A stretch of 64,000 nucleotides of DNA from Deltaproteobacteria bacterium (lineage in GTDB: Bacteria; Desulfobacterota; Desulfobacteria; Desulfobacterales; G020354645). Below, one piece after another: positions 11,396-20,539 of the stretch. The number at the start of each line of letters is the position of its first letter. Within the stretch, counting starts at the first letter, position 1. Position numbers and translations under genes: made by a program. Where the stretch lies: NCBI GenBank assembly GCA_020354645.1, contig CP070652.1, forward strand, positions 4,130,629-4,194,628, given 5' to 3'. A model generated the notes under the pieces. It saw only the letters and a list, made by a program, of their open reading frames with translations, was not told the DNA's origin and did not search any database.

Positions 11396-11862
11396 GCACA
11401 CACCTCGTTTCGGTGTCTTGATGAGTCCAAAAAATGCTCTTTTTACACGTGCCTGAAAGATAATCGGATCAAAGCTCACAGCGGAAAAGTTGCCACGCAC
11501 CCCCTGGATGAATTTATTTGAAGTGCGACCCCGCTCTCCCGAGACAGCGCCGGATCCTCAAGCGTTATTCCTGTATAATTATCGAATTGTTGTGCTAAAT
11601 AAGTAAAGATATAGTTCATGGTTGAATATTTGTAAAGAGTTTTCAAGTACCTATCACTATAGAGAAAACACTTTACACCCGAACCAGCGCGTTATATGAA
11701 GGAACACTATATATTCGCCGACCCTTGCTTACCAGCGGTTGCTTTTGGATGATTTAGATCCCAAGAGAATTTAGTGCACCGGGATCGCCATCCTTTTCAA
11801 ATTAGATCAGGGTCCGGGTGTATTTTTCCCGACCCCTATGTCGGATAAGGTTTTCGGTTACC
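11396..11862. other. Intergenic region between rdgB and the K+ channel gene
   Basis: About 470 bases between divergent genes. No coding sequence or RNA gene is supported. A TATAAT hexamer at about 11574-11579 has no convincing -35 partner. The only structured part is the GC-rich hairpin at 11807-11838 described separately. Confidence 0.5.
11807..11838. repeat. Probable remnant of the 170-220-bp MITE family (family 2)
   Basis: The bases TCAGGGTCCGGGTG, a short T run and CCCGACCCC resemble a left and a right terminal repeat of the family-2 elements joined with the interior deleted; the two GC blocks pair (GGGTCCGGG with CCCGACCC, one bulge). It lies directly upstream of the K+ channel start. 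It could instead be a chance hairpin or weak terminator. Confidence 0.35.
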
Positions 11863-12870
11863 GTGAATATCAAAAAAAGGCTATATCTTATCTTTCTATC
11901 GATCTTCATTGTCGTTATGGCAGGAAGTACGGGGTACTATTTACTCTTCGGCGGCAAACCCAGGTTTATGGATTGCGTTTATATGACGGTCGTCTCTCTG
12001 ACAACGGTGGGCTATGGTGAAGTAATAGAGATAACCGGCAACATTCCTGCTCAGATATTTACCATGATCCTAATCATTTTTGGCATGGGCATCATCTTAT
12101 ACGGAATCAGCACCGCGACCGCCATAATTGTCGAAGGAGAATTAACGGGAATTTTAAGGAAGAAGAGAATGCTTAAAGAGATACAAAAATTGAAAAATCA
12201 CATTATCGTTTGCGGCGGGGGTGAGACCGGCCGTCCGGTTCTAACCGAGCTTGTCAAAAACAAAGAGCCTGTAGTATTGATCGAACAAGAAGAAGAAAAT
12301 ATAGAAAGATGTAAACCGGTCGAAAATCTGCTCTATATTCTGGGAGATGCGACAGATGATGAAAACCTATTGGCTGCCGGGATTGAAAAGGCTTCAGGGA
12401 TCATCATCACCCTTCCCACCGATAAGGATAATCTTTATCTCACCATGACAGCACGAATTCTCAACAACAGGATACGAATCGTGAGCCGGATGATCGATCA
12501 AAAGCTTGAGCCAAAACTCAAGATGGCCGGAGCAGATCGTGTGGTTTCGCCCAATACAATCGGTGCGCTTCGTATGGCCTCTGAAATGATTCGACCAACC
12601 GTGGTGGACTTTTTGGACAGTATGCTCCGCAGTAGCCGTGGGAATCTGAGGATTCATCAGATAACCGTGTCCGAAAACTCAGGCCTTGCAGGAAAACAAT
12701 TGAATGAGTCCGGCATAAAGGACAAATTCGACCTGCTTGTTCTGGGTGCAAAGCATGAAAAGGAAGATATCAAGTTTAATCCTTCGCCTTTAGAGACTCT
12801 GGATGTCGGTATGACCCTGATTGTCATGGGGGAGGTTGAGAACATCGCCAGGGCAAGAAAGGCCTTTTAA
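11863..12870 (+). CDS. Potassium channel protein with TrkA-N/TrkA-C (RCK) domains
   Basis: About 336 aa from the GTG at 11863; the frame extends to another GTG at 11818, but the earlier residues would sit in the repeat remnant. Two hydrophobic helices (first about residues 7-28) flank a pore loop with the selectivity filter TTVGYGE. Then follow an RCK domain with HIIVCGGGETGRPVL nucleotide-binding loop (NAD/ADP), ILGDATDDENL, ITLPTDKDNL, and a C-terminal TrkA-C domain. Membrane K+ efflux/homeostasis channel of the Kch/MthK type. The start codon is uncertain; function is secure at family level. Confidence 0.82.
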   Translation: MNIKKRLYLIFLSIFIVVMAGSTGYYLLFGGKPRFMDCVYMTVVSLTTVGYGEVIEITGNIPAQIFTMILIIFGMGIILYGISTATAIIVEGELTGILRKKRMLKEIQKLKNHIIVCGGGETGRPVLTELVKNKEPVVLIEQEEENIERCKPVENLLYILGDATDDENLLAAGIEKASGIIITLPTDKDNLYLTMTARILNNRIRIVSRMIDQKLEPKLKMAGADRVVSPNTIGALRMASEMIRPTVVDFLDSMLRSSRGNLRIHQITVSENSGLAGKQLNESGIKDKFDLLVLGAKHEKEDIKFNPSPLETLDVGMTLIVMGEVENIARARKAF

Positions 12871-12888: not shown

Positions 12889-13287
12889 GAAGATTGCTTG
12901 GCGGGACACATGTTGTTGACCTCCATACTCAATGGCGTTTATCCTTCTGGTTCCACCTTGCCGAATGCAAGAAATTTGTCAGCAGAGATCAGCGCAACCC
13001 GACCCACCCTGAGGGAAACCTTGCAGCGTCTTGCAAATGAAGGTTGGATCCGGATTCAACACGGAAAACCGACCGCGGTGAACGACTTTTGGGGAAAAGC
13101 GCGTTTTGTTTCCCGTACTTATTATCAGAAACTTTCCCGGGTCATTGAGCAGGGAGACAAAAATGTAGAAAAAATCGTTAAAAATACAATGCAGCAGAGC
13201 ATCGCTATTTGGCAAGCAGCAAAATCTAAAAAAGGAGACATACCATGCGGCGTTGGAATGGATGGGGGAATACAGATATCCAAATAA
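12889..13287 (+). pseudogene. fadR remnant: GntR/FadR regulator with internal deletion and lost start
   Basis: The frame encodes a FadR-type winged helix (LNGVYPSGSTLPNARNLS, RPTLRETLQRLANEGW, IQHGKPTAVNDFW), matching the DNA-binding domain of E. coli FadR including TLRE and the HGK wing. Directly after NDFWG comes ARFVSRTYYQKLSRVIEQGD and a SIAIWQAAK segment, which match the last helices of FadR. About 110 residues of the acyl-CoA-binding domain are therefore missing. Upstream an in-frame TGA (12886-12888) cuts off the usual N-terminal residues; only a TTG at 12898 or ATG at 12910 could start it. The DNA-binding half could still be made, but acyl-CoA sensing cannot. The end overlaps the next gene by 43 nt. 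Confidence 0.7.
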
Positions 13288-14840
13288 AACTGCCGCCGAA
13301 GGGTCTTTACTTGTTGCAAGATTTGCTCGGAGAAGGACAAATCCAGCCGGATTACCCGCTCGAAAAACTCTTGCAGCGGATACCTGATTCACGTCTGCCC
13401 CAGCATCCTCTGATTTCCTTCGATCCGAAACTGCGGCTTGATCATGCCCACGGTCAAAGCTTACCGGATTGGATCAGATTGCGCGGCGGCACTCTAGAGC
13501 GTTTTCCCGACGGTGTGGCTCAACCAGCAACAATTGAAGAAGTTCAGGAAATGCTCCAATTTGCAGCCGACAATGATATCATCGTCATTCCTTTCGGTGG
13601 CGGGACCAGTGTGGTTGGCCATCTGGAAGTGCCCCTTGTACAGCGGCCGGTTCTCAGTTTATCTCTTCAGCACGTTAACCGTTTGATCGATCTTGAACCG
13701 GAAAACTTGCTGGCAACATTTGAGGCAGGGGTTCGTGGCCCTGATCTTGAAAAACAACTCAATTCTGAAGGTTATACTTTAGGGCATTATCCACAGTCGT
13801 TTGAATTTTCGTCCCTGGGTGGCTGGGTGTTAACGAGATCTAGTGGGCAGCAATCCAAATATTACGGCAGAATCGAACAGCTTTTTGCAGGCGGAGAAAT
13901 TCTAACTCCACAAGGCGCCTTGCAGCTCCTCCCTGTCCCGGCTTCAGCTGCCGGGCCGGATTTGCGACAACTGCTGCTCGGATCGGAGGGAAGAATAGGG
14001 GTTTTAACCAAGGTCATCGTTAGGATTTCGCGCTTGCCCGAAAAAGATGATATCCATGCAGTATTCTTTCCCTCTTGGGACGAAGCCAGGGAGGGGGTAC
14101 AGGAACTCGCGGGTTCTTTTTTGCCATTGTCCATGGTCCGTCTGAGTAATCCGAAAGAAACCATGGTTAACTTGGCGTTTGCAGGTCATGAGCGGCAACT
14201 GAGATTCCTCGGCCAATATCTGCGTATGCGCGGTGTTCCGCCGACACAGGCATGTATGTGTCTGATCGGCTTCATCGGTTCACAGCGCATGGTGAGAAAT
14301 GTGCGGCGGGAAGCTCTCTCAATCCTCCGTCGCCACCACAGTGTTTCCGTTGGAAAATCCATCGGTAAGGTATGGAAAAAAAACCGATTTCGGTCTGCCT
14401 ATTTGCGAAACACTCTGTGGGACCTGGGCTATGCAGTAGATACCTTAGAAACGGCTGTCACCTGGGATAAAGTAAACTCAACCATGGCGGCCATCGAAAA
14501 ATCGATTGAAAGCTGTATGGCGCAATGGAACGAAAGTGTGCACGCATTCAGTCATCTATCACATGTATATCGGAGCGGTTCCAGCATCTACACTACTTAT
14601 GTTTTCCGCCTTGCTGAAACACCGGCGGAAACATTAAGCCGCTGGAAGATGCTCAAACAAGCAGCAAGTCAGGCCGTGGTCGGCTGCGGGGGTACCATCA
14701 GTCATCAACACGGTGTCGGCGTGGACCACAAACAATACCTAAAAGCGGAAAAAGGGCCTCTTGGAATAAGCACATTGCAACATATCTTTTCTCATCTTGA
14801 TCCAGACCAGCGCATGAACCCTAATAAGCTGCTGCCATAA
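13245..14840 (+). CDS. FAD-binding oxidase, alkylglycerone-phosphate synthase (AGPS)-like
   Basis: 531 aa. FAD_binding_4 (PCMH-type) domain at about residues 90-270, with PFGGGTSVVGHLEVP, EAGVRGPDLEKQL, GGWVLTRSSGQQSKYYG and LLLGSEGRIGVLT, then a C-terminal FAD oxidase domain. Particular AGPS features are ETAVTWDKV, SGSSIYTTYVF with the conserved Tyr, and GGTISHQHGVG, corresponding to the active-site histidine cluster (HHH in eukaryotic AGPS, HQH here). AGPS swaps the acyl chain of acyl-DHAP for a fatty alcohol, making an ether bond. AAGGAGA lies 6 nt before the ATG, inside the fadR remnant. It is followed 16 nt later by the GlpD-like gene. Ether-lipid synthesis is the best guess; a generic D-2-hydroxyacid oxidase is the alternative. 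Confidence 0.75.
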   Translation: MRRWNGWGNTDIQIKLPPKGLYLLQDLLGEGQIQPDYPLEKLLQRIPDSRLPQHPLISFDPKLRLDHAHGQSLPDWIRLRGGTLERFPDGVAQPATIEEVQEMLQFAADNDIIVIPFGGGTSVVGHLEVPLVQRPVLSLSLQHVNRLIDLEPENLLATFEAGVRGPDLEKQLNSEGYTLGHYPQSFEFSSLGGWVLTRSSGQQSKYYGRIEQLFAGGEILTPQGALQLLPVPASAAGPDLRQLLLGSEGRIGVLTKVIVRISRLPEKDDIHAVFFPSWDEAREGVQELAGSFLPLSMVRLSNPKETMVNLAFAGHERQLRFLGQYLRMRGVPPTQACMCLIGFIGSQRMVRNVRREALSILRRHHSVSVGKSIGKVWKKNRFRSAYLRNTLWDLGYAVDTLETAVTWDKVNSTMAAIEKSIESCMAQWNESVHAFSHLSHVYRSGSSIYTTYVFRLAETPAETLSRWKMLKQAASQAVVGCGGTISHQHGVGVDHKQYLKAEKGPLGISTLQHIFSHLDPDQRMNPNKLLP

Positions 14841-14856
14841 ATAAAGGAAATCATTG

Positions 14857-16512
14857 ATGAGTTTACAGGAATTGCAGCAAACCTGGGATCTGATCATTGT
14901 GGGCGGCGGAATTACCGGAGCCGGAATACTCCGGGAAGCAACCCGCATGAATTTACGGGTTTTGCTGGTTGAACAAAGGGATTTTGCCTGGGGTACCTCC
15001 AGCCGCTCTTCAAAACTGGTCCACGGCGGATTGCGCTATCTAAAACAAGGAAAATTTTTATTAACCAAAATTGCCGTAGAAGAGCGGGAGCATTTGCTTA
15101 AAGATGCACCGGGTCTTGTGGAATCATTAGAATTTTTATTACCCGTGTATGCGGATCAAAAACCGGGAAAGCGAACACTTGCAGTTGGTTTATCAATTTA
15201 TGACCTCATGGCCCGGGAGCGACAGCACCGATTTTACGATGCCACTGAATTTAATAAGCACCTACCATTTATCAATCAAAATGGGCTTACCGGTGGTTTT
15301 CTCTATTTAGATGCCCAAGTAGATGATTCCCGACTGGTTTTGCGATTGATAGATGAATCGGTTTCTTCCGGCGCACGGGCATTAAATTACACGTCCGTCA
15401 CTGAAATCCTTCGCAGTGCCGACGGTGAGGTTGTTGGGGTGCAGCTAAACGACACAGAAACGCATGAGACCAAAACGCTTCAGACCCCGGCCGTGATTAA
15501 TGCGACGGGGTGCTGGTCCGAAATATTACACCCATCACCGGAACCGCACCGTCACCTGCGTCCTTTGCGCGGCAGCCATCTGGTTTTTCCTTCTGAGGTT
15601 TTGCCGATTTCTAAAGGCATTGGTTTCAACCACCCCCAGGACAAAAGATGGGTTTTTATTGTCCCCTGGGAAGGCGCCGTGCTCGTAGGAACAACCGATC
15701 TGGATCATAAAGAGGATCTTTCCATTGAGCCGACCATTACCGATGCTGAAATTTCCTACCTGATGAAAGGGCTTCAGGCCATATTTCCATCACTGCATAT
15801 CTCCCTAGCAGACTGTCTGGCCGCATTCGCGGGAGTGCGGCCCGTTCTCAGCGAAGGCAAGCAAACACCTTCGGCAGAATCCCGCGAGCATGTTGTCTGG
15901 GTCAACAAGGGTCTGATAACCGTTACCGGCGGTAAACTGACAACATTTCGGCGTTTGGCTTTGGATGCCCTCAAGGCTGCCCAACCTTTTTTGCCATCTG
16001 CAAAATTGCCGGATCGACGAGATCCTGTTTTTTCTGAAGTTCCCGATAAACCTGAAAGAGCTTATGGCCTATCCAAACAAACATGGAGACGCCTTTATGG
16101 CCGCTACGGCGAAGGCGCCAATACCCTTGTTCAAACGGCCGATCCAAAAGATCTTAACATTATTCCCGGAACCCATACGCTGTGGGCGGAATTGCCTTTT
16201 GCGGCTAAATATGAACAGGTGAGACATCTGGACGACCTTTTGTTGCGGCGGGTACGTATCGGTTTATTGACACCCTATGGTGGAAAAGCGTATCTCAAAC
16301 GAATCCGAAATCTTTGCAAGGACAAGCTGTCCTGGGACAGGCGCCGTTGGAAAGAAGAAAAAGCACGCTATCTTGACATCTGGATCCATGCCCATGCTTT
16401 ACCTGACCAACGTGCCAAGTTTCTCGTTCAAAAGAAAAATATCTTTTTGGCGGTTATCAGAATCTTTTTTAGCTACATCTACCAAAAAATACGGTCCAGA
16501 AAATCAACCTGA
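14857..16512 (+). CDS. glpD: FAD-dependent glycerol-3-phosphate dehydrogenase/oxidase
   Basis: 551 aa from the ATG at 14857 (AAGGAA about 7 nt upstream; a TTG directly precedes it). N-terminal Rossmann FAD motif IIVGGGITGAGILREA, then RDFAWGTSSRSSKLVHGGLRYL typical of GlpD/GlpA, LVGTTDLDHK, and AGVRPVLSEGK with the VTGGKLTTFRRLA motif near the FAD isoalloxazine site. A C-terminal DAO_C helical domain follows. It oxidises sn-glycerol 3-phosphate to DHAP, feeding electrons to the quinone pool at the inner membrane. Its position between an AGPS-like enzyme (which uses DHAP esters) and an FGGY kinase points to one glycerol/ether-lipid pathway. Confidence 0.85.
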   Translation: MSLQELQQTWDLIIVGGGITGAGILREATRMNLRVLLVEQRDFAWGTSSRSSKLVHGGLRYLKQGKFLLTKIAVEEREHLLKDAPGLVESLEFLLPVYADQKPGKRTLAVGLSIYDLMARERQHRFYDATEFNKHLPFINQNGLTGGFLYLDAQVDDSRLVLRLIDESVSSGARALNYTSVTEILRSADGEVVGVQLNDTETHETKTLQTPAVINATGCWSEILHPSPEPHRHLRPLRGSHLVFPSEVLPISKGIGFNHPQDKRWVFIVPWEGAVLVGTTDLDHKEDLSIEPTITDAEISYLMKGLQAIFPSLHISLADCLAAFAGVRPVLSEGKQTPSAESREHVVWVNKGLITVTGGKLTTFRRLALDALKAAQPFLPSAKLPDRRDPVFSEVPDKPERAYGLSKQTWRRLYGRYGEGANTLVQTADPKDLNIIPGTHTLWAELPFAAKYEQVRHLDDLLLRRVRIGLLTPYGGKAYLKRIRNLCKDKLSWDRRRWKEEKARYLDIWIHAHALPDQRAKFLVQKKNIFLAVIRIFFSYIYQKIRSRKST

Positions 16513-16548
16513 GAAAACTTGACTTGGGTTATTTGGGGAGGGTCGCCC

Positions 16549-18108
16549 ATGAGCGAAAAAGACCTGTTACTGGCCATCGATAACGGCACGCAAAGCCTGA
16601 AAGCGTTGATCTTCGATCTGGAAGGTCAGCTGATTGCAAAAGAGATAGTGGCCTTTAAACCCTACTTTTCTGAACATCCCGCCTGGGCAGAACAAGCACC
16701 TGAAATTTTCTGGCAGGCACTTTGCCAAGCCTGCCAAAGGCTTTTGAGCAAGCAATACATCGCCCGCGATCGTATCGCCGGTGTGGCACTTACCACTCAA
16801 CGGGGCACCGTTATCAATGTCGATAAAAACGGTGAACCGCTTCGCCCGGCCATGCTTTGGCTCGATCAACGTAAAACCTACGGACAGGCTCCGGTCGGCG
16901 GACTTTGGGGATTAATTTTCAAAACTGCCCGTTTGACCAAAACGGTAGCTTATCTCCAACAAGAAGCCGAAGCAAACTGGATCCGTATTTACCAACCGGA
17001 TATCTGGGAAAAGACTCACAAATACCTGCTGCTTTCCGGGTATCTAACATACAAACTAACCAGCAAATTTGTTGATTCTATCGGTTGCCAGGTAGGGTAC
17101 ATTCCGTTCGATTACAAAAACTTGCGTTGGGCGGCCGGTTGGAGCTGGAAATGGCGGGTCTTGCCCATTGATCCCTCCGTACTCCCAGAGCTCGTTGCGC
17201 CGTGTCAAACACTCGGCGAAATAACGACCACAGCTGCCAAGGTGACCGGAATCCCAGCCGGATTACCTTTAATCGCTACGGCTGCAGATAAAGCTTGCGA
17301 AGTCATTGGGTCAGGAAGCTTTGATTCCTCAATAGGCTGCCTTAGCTATGGAACAACGGCTACAATCAACGTAACTCACAAAAAATATGTTGAACCCATT
17401 CCGCTGCTACCGGCCTATCCGGCTGCCGTGCCGAAATTTCATACTATCGAGGTCCAGGTATATCGCGGCTATTGGATGGTCAATTGGTTCAAGGAGCAAT
17501 TCGGCTATCCCGAAAGGCAAGCCGCAGAGACCCAGGGAGTAAAGGCTGAAGAGCTCTTTGACCGTTTAGTGGATGCTATTCCGCCAGGCTCGATGGGGCT
17601 CATGCTGCAGCCGTTTTGGTCACCGGGATTGAAAAATCCGGGACCGGAAGCAAAGGGGGCCATCATCGGTTTTGGTGACGTCCATAGCCGAGGCCACCTG
17701 TATCGATCTATTTTGGAAGGGCTGGCTTATGCTCTCAGGGAAGGGAAAGAACGTATAGAAAAGCGCACCAGAATTTCCATCACCAGCCTACGGGTATCCG
17801 GCGGCGGCAGCCAGAGTCGCAACGCCATGCAACTGACGGCCGACATTTTTGGCCTGCCGGCTGCCAGACCGATCCTTTATGAAACCTCCGGCCTGGGCGC
17901 TTCTATTGTTGCGGCCGTTGGGCTTGAACTGTATGTAGATTTCGAAACAGCAGTGAAAGCGATGACCCATGTGGGTGATGTTTTTGAACCGGACATGAGA
18001 AACCATCGCCTTTATGATGCGCTCTACCGTCACGTTTATAAAAAAATGTACAAACGCCTCAAACCACTCTACCAACGCATTCGCGAAATAACCGGTTATC
18101 CAAAGTAA
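16549..18108 (+). CDS. FGGY-family carbohydrate kinase
   Basis: 519 aa from the ATG at 16549, which has GGGGAGGG about 6 nt upstream; a TTG at 16519 in frame is less likely. FGGY ASKHA fold: [18 protein letters not shown] phosphate-1 motif, [35 protein letters not shown] and the C-terminal signature [19 protein letters not shown]. It phosphorylates a sugar or polyol with ATP. The N-terminal DNGTQS differs from DQGTTSSR of true glycerol kinases and is closer to xylulokinase-like members, so glycerol is not certain as substrate. Genomic context (GlpD and AGPS-like genes immediately upstream) suggests a glycerol-type or 1-O-alkylglycerol substrate (inference). Confidence 0.82.
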
Positions 18109-18841: not shown

Positions 18842-20539
18842 ATGTTAAAAGAACTGTCCATCCGTAATTTTGCCATCATTGATGATTTGACCATCAGCTT
18901 TTCTGAAGGACTTTCCATCTTAAGCGGTGAGACCGGTGCCGGCAAATCTATTATTTTAAATGCCGTTAATCTCCTGCTGGGCAGCAGAGCCTCCGCTACC
19001 CTTATCCGCACAGACGCTGAAACTGCAGAGCTTGAGGCGCTATTCTTAATTTCACCGAACAGCAGCGTTGCCAAATTTATGTCCGAGCAAGATTACGATC
19101 CAAGTGATGGACTGCTGGTCAGAAGAATTATTTCCCGTAGTGAGAGTAACCGTGTGTATATTAATGACCGCTTAGCCACGATGCAGTTATTAAGCGCAAT
19201 GACCGAAAACCTCGCCAGCATATCCGGACAACACGCACACCAAGGGCTTTTAAAAGAAGATCAGCAACTACTGATCCTTGACCAATTCGGTGGACTGATA
19301 CCCCTCCGCACAGAGGTTTCCAAATGCTTTTATGATATGCTACCACTGCTCGAGAGGCTTAAAGAGCTTAATTTATTAAAGGACCGACAAGCTGAGCATA
19401 TTGAACTGCTCAAATTTCAGAAAAAAGAAATTACCGATGCCTGCATCATACCAGGGGAAGATATCGCACTGGAAGAAGAGCGTGTGCGCCTAAAAAATAG
19501 CGAAGGTCTATATCAGACAGTCTACGGCAGTATCGAAGAACTATACAGCACCCAGGGCTCAATCGCAGAGCGGCTGGCAGAAGTAAAAAAAAATCTAAGC
19601 CAAATGGTCCGGATCGACAAGACGCTTTCCAAGTCAACTGAAGATCTTGCGCAAACGACCTATCAGATCGAAGATTTGGTTGAAGCGTTGAGAAATTATC
19701 TTAAAACGATCCAAATGGACGAAGGACGCCTGGAAGTCGTGGAGGAACGTTTGGACCTCCTGCAAAAGCTCAAGCGAAAATACGGCGGGTCGCTGGATGC
19801 TGTCATTTTGCATCTTGAATCCATCACCCGTGAACTCTCCGATGTTGAAAATATCTCAGGAAAAATTACTGAAACACAAATGAAACTGGCCGAGTTGCAC
19901 CAAAACCTTACCGATTTATCTATCCAACTCTCAGATAAAAGAAAATCGGCGGCAACATGGTTTTCCGAAAAAGTGATGGCAGAGTTGGAAGGCCTCCATA
20001 TGGCCCAAACCCGATTTGACGTCTCCCTTCGAAAAGTTTTGGCTGATGAAAGCACAGATCCATATCTGACGATCAACGGGAAAGTATTGAATGAAGCTGG
20101 GCTTGACCGGGCAACCTTTTTAATCGCTCCTAACATCGGTGAAACTCTTAAACCGCTGGCCTCCATAGCCTCCGGCGGCGAGCTTTCACGGGTGGTACTA
20201 GCTTTAAAAGCCATTCTGGCTGAGACAGATTCGGTTGAAACGCTAATTTTTGACGAGGTTGACGCCGGTATCGGAGGCGGTGTGGCGGAAATGGTCGGTC
20301 AAAAACTGTCAGAGTTGTCGCAAAATTATCAGGTCATCTGCATTACTCATCTTCCGCAGATCGCAAAATTCGGTAATCATCATTTTGGTGTAACCAAAAG
20401 TGTTGTCAAAGGTCGAACTCGGACCGCCATCAACCCGTTGACCCAAAATGAGCGCCTTGAAGAAATCGCCAGGATGCTTGGCGGGACTAAAATTACAAAG
20501 ACAACCCGAGATCATGCGCGTGAATTATTAAAGACATAA
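18842..20539 (+). CDS. recN: DNA repair protein RecN
   Basis: 565 aa SMC-like ATPase. Walker A ILSGETGAGKSIIL near residue 30, long coiled-coil arms through the middle (about 150-370), ABC signature PLASIASGGELSRVVLAL, Walker B ETLIFDEVDAGIGGGVAEMVG and the D/H-loop ICITHLPQIAKFG. RecN acts at double-strand breaks together with RecA. Its length is the family norm. It starts MLKELSIRNFAIIDDL, the standard RecN N-terminus, so the start is well supported. It stands as its own unit; the FmdB gene downstream has its own promoter. Confidence 0.95.
   Translation: MLKELSIRNFAIIDDLTISFSEGLSILSGETGAGKSIILNAVNLLLGSRASATLIRTDAETAELEALFLISPNSSVAKFMSEQDYDPSDGLLVRRIISRSESNRVYINDRLATMQLLSAMTENLASISGQHAHQGLLKEDQQLLILDQFGGLIPLRTEVSKCFYDMLPLLERLKELNLLKDRQAEHIELLKFQKKEITDACIIPGEDIALEEERVRLKNSEGLYQTVYGSIEELYSTQGSIAERLAEVKKNLSQMVRIDKTLSKSTEDLAQTTYQIEDLVEALRNYLKTIQMDEGRLEVVEERLDLLQKLKRKYGGSLDAVILHLESITRELSDVENISGKITETQMKLAELHQNLTDLSIQLSDKRKSAATWFSEKVMAELEGLHMAQTRFDVSLRKVLADESTDPYLTINGKVLNEAGLDRATFLIAPNIGETLKPLASIASGGELSRVVLALKAILAETDSVETLIFDEVDAGIGGGVAEMVGQKLSELSQNYQVICITHLPQIAKFGNHHFGVTKSVVKGRTRTAINPLTQNERLEEIARMLGGTKITKTTRDHARELLKT

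Follow-up and report, generated by a model that had tools for sequence, protein, structure and literature searches.

A gene cluster of an AGPS-family flavoenzyme, a GlpD-like dehydrogenase and an FGGY kinase in the Desulfobacterales: a candidate cassette for oxygen-independent breakdown of glycerol ether lipids

The 5.57 Mb single-contig genome of a deltaproteobacterium of the order Desulfobacterales contains, within a stretch of 64,000 nucleotides (contig CP070652.1, positions 4,130,629 to 4,194,628; hereafter the window), three + strand open reading frames (ORFs) that follow one another with short gaps at 13245-14840, 14857-16512 and 16549-18108. They encode a relative of AGPS, a GlpD-like dehydrogenase and an FGGY kinase, and we propose that together they may well form a cassette for the oxygen-independent breakdown of glycerol ether lipids. 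More tentatively, the AGPS relative of a strict anaerobe could be a lyase or hydrolase of alkyl-dihydroxyacetone phosphate (alkyl-DHAP), and with the kinase and the GlpD-like protein it would then constitute the first defined pathway of O2-independent glyceryl ether cleavage, under an acyl-CoA-sensing FadR. The three tightly spaced genes had been noticed in a sequence-only reading of the window, and their presence is confirmed by the ORFs, by Pfam matches that all exceed the gathering cut-off and by conservation in many genomes; each gene is preceded by a Shine-Dalgarno-like sequence. The organism itself is probably an anaerobe, judging from its relatives.

Identity of the three enzymes

The first gene (13245..14840, + strand) encodes a 531 aa protein with FAD_binding_4 and FAD-oxidase_C domains, and is a true member of the AGPS family by descent. 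The protein matches AGPS of Dictyostelium (PDB 2uuu, 4e-78) and of the guinea pig (1e-63), whereas the nearest non-AGPS flavoprotein, D-lactate dehydrogenase, reaches 2e-25. A profile of its relatives spans residues 7-534 of 2uuu (1e-154), including the N-terminal WNGWG segment, in which W7 and G8 are invariant. When its AlphaFold model (predicted local distance difference test score, pLDDT, 89.5) was compared with known structures using Foldseek, the 37 best matches were all AGPS chains, nearly all with template modelling (TM) scores of 0.8-0.9, followed by D-lactate dehydrogenase at about 0.7; the structural alignment gives about 25% identity to AGPS. In a 64-row tree, a branch with 100/100 support separates all AGPS sequences, including two eukaryotic ones, from the GlcD-like proteins of the same genome, and the window protein falls inside AGPS, in a 100/100 subclade that also has members from the Chloroflexota, Bacillota and Myxococcota. 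Close relatives of the gene come from the Desulfobacterales and from Candidatus Desulfatibia. The sequence-only reading had preferred AGPS to the glycolate/lactate oxidases and had named placement among the latter as the outcome that would count against it; the PDB match, profile, tree and structural comparison all bear out the AGPS assignment. A GlcD-type oxidase was thus ruled out by the tree, the profile scores and Foldseek, the protein lying outside the GlcD branch with 117 bits against the GlcD equivalog cut-off of 568.

The GlcD-like genes of this genome provide two side observations. A near-identical pair lies at genome positions 2121355 and 5441871, and a second pair with weaker matches, identical scores and similar spacing lies at 2116210 and 5436726; the pairs reflect either a segment of several kb that was duplicated in the genome or a duplication introduced by the assembly. 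Another GlcD-like gene (genome positions 1801716-1802435) has one in-frame TGA inside an otherwise open frame of 477 aa, and this codon may be explained by a pseudogene, by selenocysteine or by a sequencing error.

The window protein shares with the AGPS structures 2uuu and 4bby the full-length fold, the WNGWG N-terminus, the flavin adenine dinucleotide (FAD) domain and the equivalents of R419, R515, Y578, H615 and H617 of the guinea-pig enzyme, residues that are kept in nearly all of its homologues as well; structures have been solved for AGPS mutants at two of these sites, R419H and Y578F. It differs from these enzymes in having no acyltransferase or fatty-acyl reductase partners, and in the position of H616, where the window protein has Q488 and 18 of 20 scored members of the subclade have Gln, as against His in 75 of 76 others. 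Both motifs pointed out in the sequence-only reading, ETAVTWDKV and SHQHGVG, are present and typify this subclade, whereas eukaryotic AGPS has SHHHGVG. The HHH triplet (615-617) of the EC 2.5.1.26 enzyme is therefore not intact, and we class the protein as a homologue within the AGPS family rather than an established enzyme of this EC number.

The second gene (14857..16512, + strand; DAO and DAO_C domains) lies in an ORF of 552 aa that opens with TTG at 14854, followed by ATG at 14857. Its product scores 296 bits, below the GlpD equivalog cut-off of 360, and retains the equivalents of the active-site residues R54, R317 and K354. Across 96 relatives, proteins of this type score at least 383 bits (fragmented copies aside) and canonical GlpD at most 264; on these scores it belongs to a dedicated subgroup, cleanly apart from canonical GlpD. 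The window genome has a single other GlpD relative, a distant one. We propose that the protein is a putative 1-alkyl-glycerol-3-phosphate dehydrogenase.

The third gene (16549..18108, + strand; FGGY_N and FGGY_C domains) lies in an ORF of 529 aa that opens with TTG at 16519, and ATG 16549 (519 aa) is the better start. This kinase also belongs to a dedicated subgroup, with at least 534 bits against at most 233 for other FGGY proteins across the same 96 relatives, and its score of 141 bits against the GlpK model TIGR01311 is far below the cut-off of 590. Thus, both enzymes share their superfamilies with the GlpD and GlpK of glycerol catabolism, yet form separate subgroups below the equivalog cut-offs. 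In GlpK, R83, E84, Y135 and D245 form hydrogen bonds with the glycerol hydroxyls, and F270 packs against the glycerol carbons (PMC3245297). The kinase retains R83, W103 and D245, whereas E84 is replaced by G, A, S, N or D in the subgroup and F270 is T in 62 of 62 members, losses that should open the pocket. The sequence-only reading was therefore right that this is not a canonical glycerol kinase. The AlphaFold model (pLDDT 89.7) has the FGGY fold, and its best structural matches, LsrK, glycerol kinase and xylulokinase, have similar scores, so that fold comparison cannot separate these three. A whole-genome search found no GlpK above the NCBIfam cut-off in the window genome, despite several other FGGY kinases. 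Of the 28 genomes with all three genes, 23 also have a canonical GlpK, so the kinase of the cluster is not just their glycerol kinase. We propose that it is a candidate kinase for alkylglycerol or another glycerolipid.

Partner genes and a shared operator

AGPS genes are present in 38 of 95 relatives. The GlpD subgroup was found in 33 of these 38 genomes against 2 of the 57 without AGPS (nominal Fisher p 7e-18), and the FGGY subgroup in 32 of 38 against 14 of 57 (p 8e-9), p-values and counts that ignore descent. The linkage is conserved, and the three genes behave as one unit, as the sequence-only reading had supposed. The same kind of gene set accompanies two types of AGPS, that of the window (~530 aa) and one of ~570 aa with ~31% identity to it; the partners therefore vary less than the AGPS lineage does, as would be expected if it is the reaction that counts. 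Among 69 AGPS loci from many phyla, GlpD is nearby in 35, a YegS/DAGK lipid kinase in 20 and an FGGY kinase in 3, and in other phyla the YegS/DAGK gene beside AGPS is usually accompanied by GlpD. When 64 operon-like neighbours of AGPS were scanned with Pfam, 17 were YegS/DAGK proteins, and the other listed families had at most one match each, including one acyltransferase and one short-chain dehydrogenase; no DHAP acyltransferase, fatty-alcohol-forming (fatty-acyl) reductase or alkyl-DHAP reductase recurred among these neighbours. In one genome (G021), FGGY proteins are entirely absent, but a YegS-type gene lies two genes upstream of AGPS. That a lipid kinase occupies the place of FGGY points to a lipid substrate; moreover, a kinase fits naturally into breakdown or salvage, whereas the known route of synthesis from DHAP has no place for one. 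Strict exclusivity of the two kinase types held in the 69 loci but is not general, since Pseudomonas has both.

A second line of evidence comes from a regulator that the sequence-only reading had not mentioned. In relatives, an intact FadR-type gene stands in front of the cluster and encodes the acyl-CoA-binding domain FadR_C (2e-33); one of these regulators attains the NCBIfam FadR cut-off, and others carry the FadR_C domain. Their ligand is probably long-chain acyl-CoA. The conserved operator of these FadR genes is CTGGTATGACCTCTTACCAG, and a nearly invariant sequence, aCTGGTATGACCTCTTACCAGt, lies upstream of the intact genes; we take the latter to resemble the operators of the FadR subfamily. 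Searching the 96 genomes with one mismatch allowed returned 24 operator sites in 20 genomes and none for the reversed pattern, and 22 of the 24 lie at FadR, AGPS, GlpD or FGGY genes. In G050, a site lies between FadR and an operon for a FadE-type acyl-CoA dehydrogenase, a FadB-type protein and a thiolase; in G009 (L242, 352-4841), a site precedes genes of glpA, glpB and an aldehyde dehydrogenase family member, divergent from a GlpR-type gene, an arrangement in which both fatty-acid and glycerol signals may exert control. One operator therefore marks both fatty-acid and glycerol-3-phosphate catabolism. Outside the order, the one-mismatch matches have unrelated neighbours, the reversed pattern is similarly frequent and these matches look like chance; a perfect match near an FGGY gene in G262 is the sole one that looks real. 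As a side observation, in one genome (G081) four operator copies are packed into 233 bases (L246, 5819-6051), between divergent FGGY-AGPS and FadR-GlpD genes.

In the window, this control is lost. What is left is a GntR-type ORF of 129 aa (12898..13287, + strand), which overlaps the start of the AGPS gene and matches the GntR helix-turn-helix (2e-14) and positions 11-76 of fadR_gamma. Using tblastn, only residues 17-87 and 187-232 of the intact FadR of relatives match the window, in one frame: the winged-helix domain is fused in frame to the last ~46 residues, and ~107 internal residues (the acyl-CoA-binding core) and ~15 N-terminal residues are gone. Pfam gave no FadR_C match in this copy, a whole-genome search found no intact FadR elsewhere, and the operator has no match anywhere in the genome with up to 3 mismatches allowed. 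A frameshift as the origin of the short protein was ruled out, since both pieces are in one frame, ~107 codons are absent and the operator is gone. FadR here and E. coli FadR belong to the same superfamily, but here the regulator is mostly local to one operon, and broken in the window.

A proposed breakdown route and its alternatives

The proposed route would begin with lipases that release 1-O-alkylglycerol from ether phospholipids. The FGGY kinase would convert it with ATP to 1-alkyl-sn-glycerol-3-phosphate, and the GlpD-like flavoprotein would oxidise the C2 hydroxyl to give 1-alkyl-DHAP, passing the electrons to quinone. AGPS acts by a covalent, two-step mechanism; run in reverse by the AGPS-like enzyme, this chemistry would turn 1-alkyl-DHAP into a flavin-DHAP adduct and a fatty alcohol, and the adduct could be resolved by water, giving DHAP, or by a fatty acid, giving acyl-DHAP. 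The fatty alcohol would enter beta-oxidation, and DHAP central metabolism. In the relatives, the FadR-type repressor would open the operon upon long-chain acyl-CoA; in the window such control would have been lost. GlpK-type kinases phosphorylate the sn-3 position, GlpD oxidises C2 and AGPS takes 1-substituted DHAP, and the stereochemistry of the three steps is consistent with this route. Archaeal lipids, with their sn-1 phosphate, do not fit GlpD, and bacterial 1-O-alkyl lipids are therefore the likelier substrate. While the gene identities, linkage, catalytic residues and shared operator are direct observations, the substrates, the order of steps, the direction of the AGPS reaction and the FadR ligand are what we infer from them.

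The nearest known case is the GliR regulon PA3023-PA3027 of P. aeruginosa, a gene set of unproven function that its authors interpret as synthetic. PA3026-PA3025-PA3024-PA3023 are controlled by the AraC-type activator GliR and co-induced with the phospholipase C PlcA, and a PA3026-PA3024 deletion left growth unchanged in rich medium, on citrate, on glycerol and in the BIOLOG plates employed (PMC8151288). The authors suggest a path from glycerol to alkylglycerone phosphate, the main text not containing the word “ether”, and report the full gene arrangement from few genomes only (PMC8151288). Like the window cluster, this operon has three adjacent enzyme genes on one strand, for an FAD-binding oxidoreductase (to which the authors tentatively assign the step from acyl- to alkyl-glycerone phosphate), a GlpD homologue and an FGGY kinase, with one regulator. 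It differs in having both FGGY and YegS kinases, in belonging to an aerobe, and in the AraC-type GliR as opposed to the FadR-type remnant of the window; moreover, the gene set described here recurs across an order, with sulfate reducers among the sampled members. The co-induction of the Pseudomonas equivalents with PlcA supports breakdown (PMC8151288).

Several points weigh against a breakdown role. Synthesis is the only known activity of AGPS, and in the literature examined no relative of AGPS has been shown to bring about net hydrolysis of alkyl-DHAP. Genes for a lipase or an alcohol dehydrogenase are not linked to the cluster; FadR can serve lipid synthesis too; the changes in the kinase pocket would equally suit a larger sugar alcohol; and the window genome is without a canonical GlpK, so the kinase there might serve glycerol. 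To the neglect of descent in the co-occurrence counts must be added that AGPS correlates with canonical GlpK as well (p 2e-8), so that part of the linkage signal reflects shared lifestyle; the AGPS-GlpD link persists within both GlpK-positive (p 2e-7) and GlpK-negative (p 2e-6) genomes. Furthermore, 13 of 95 relatives have the kinase subgroup but neither AGPS nor the GlpD subgroup, and in some of them the kinase gene lies beside RecN at the corresponding chromosomal position. The kinase must therefore have some use alone, and its strict dependence on AGPS was ruled out.

The obvious alternative is ether-lipid synthesis, in which DHAP comes from glycerol through the kinase and GlpD, an acyltransferase encoded elsewhere forms acyl-DHAP and the AGPS-like enzyme swaps acyl for alkyl. 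In its favour, the known role of AGPS is synthesis, the formation of alkenyl ethers in Myxococcus is attributed to an agps gene (cited in PMC11868695), and a PlsB-like GPAT_C protein of the window genome (888 aa frame, genome positions 2504189-2505214) could acylate DHAP. Yet we regard this direction as doubtful, for the other synthetic enzymes do not recur with the gene set, genomes with a canonical GlpK can do without a dedicated GlpD or a second kinase to obtain DHAP, and FadR-type control is common to beta-oxidation and glpAB genes. Besides, the sulfate reducer Desulfatibacillum has been shown to form ether bonds by Ger (PMC11150832), and DUF2229 (Ger/PlsA-like) proteins occur in 85 of 96 genomes. 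Ger/PlsA and ElbD are bacterial ether-bond enzymes of unrelated synthetic routes, unlinked to the cluster. DUF2229 was considered as a sign of ether-lipid synthesis and is uninformative at this frequency; the two DUF2229 frames of the window genome have 958 and 898 aa, compared with the usual ~1450. The GPAT_C domain was found in E. coli alone among 14 control genomes.

The remaining alternatives change the purpose or the substrate. Salvage, in which the kinase makes a lyso-phosphatidate-like lipid from alkylglycerol or monoacylglycerol for re-acylation into the membrane, while GlpD and AGPS remodel or remove the surplus, would account for the solitary kinase genes and for YegS-type lipid kinases taking the place of FGGY elsewhere; it leaves the near-obligate AGPS-GlpD pairing and the catabolic operator sites unexplained, and we hold it to be improbable. 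Quite improbable, too, is a role in degrading a glycerol-linked polyol or glycoside other than an ether lipid, in which the AGPS-like enzyme would remove a different substituent from DHAP: FGGY kinases act mostly on sugars, LsrK, glycerol kinase and xylulokinase score alike structurally, and H616Q may mark an altered substrate, but R419, R515, Y578, H615 and H617 are retained, the substituting kinase is a lipid kinase, and the control is of the FadR type. Plain glycerol use by the kinase and GlpD, the AGPS-like gene being incidental, would suit a genome with no GlpK above the cut-off and one other, distant GlpD relative. It is very unlikely, given the canonical GlpK of most full-set relatives, AGPS as the tightest-linked partner of this GlpD subgroup, and the intact growth on glycerol of the Pseudomonas deletion (PMC8151288), where other GlpK or GlpD copies may compensate.

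Breakdown fits better than synthesis because AGPS recurs across phyla with GlpD and a kinase (FGGY or YegS-type) and not with synthesis enzymes, although its direction comes from inference. Of the suggestion in the sequence-only reading that the cluster makes or breaks ether lipids, the enzyme family and the lipid theme stand, and making is the weaker direction; its idea that GlpD supplies DHAP for synthesis is not supported, the recurring partners being kinases and an acyl-CoA-sensor-type repressor.

The ancestral locus and wider meaning

The cluster is flanked upstream by a K+ channel (TrkA-N) gene (11818..12870, + strand; Pfam), whose position is conserved in relatives, and downstream by a RecN-like gene (18842..20539, + strand), also conserved in relatives and named by sequence reading without a family search. 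Related loci share the frame K+ channel - FadR - [AGPS-GlpD] - FGGY - RecN: a TrkA/ion-channel gene is at the corresponding position in L199, and a RecN-like family of 565-568 aa adjoins the FGGY gene in L199, L200, L203, L207, L212 and L213. The two flanking genes mark the ancestral locus and are outside the pathway. At the corresponding place in L199 and L200, AGPS-GlpD, or FadR too, is missing; the middle of the cassette has therefore been gained or lost while the kinase stays. The locus L200 (G087) keeps the FGGY kinase together with FadR and its operator between the K+ channel and RecN, without AGPS or GlpD, so that even a solitary kinase gene stays under this control.

The ether lipids of bacteria and archaea serve as long-lived biomarkers, whereas microbial breakage of the ether bond is little known; according to a PNAS paper of 2025, the turnover of archaeal lipids has been poorly studied (PMC12718374). 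Alkylglycerol monooxygenase (AGMO) is the one enzyme reported to split 1-O-alkyl ethers (PMC9192799). It has the same proposed job as the cluster, but does not have the AGPS fold and has been studied in animals. AGMO is a tetrahydrobiopterin-dependent monooxygenase that needs O2, and such an oxygenase could not serve an anaerobe. To our knowledge, no anaerobic enzyme pathway is known for taking ether lipids apart, and we found no description of an ether-cleaving AGPS pathway of this kind in the open-access papers. The cluster offers three proteins and one DNA site that are open to direct testing. AGPS homologues in metagenomes have been taken as evidence of alkenyl-ether synthesis (PMC11868695); if many AGPS genes mark breakdown, environmental surveys that count AGPS as synthesis would be reading it the wrong way round.

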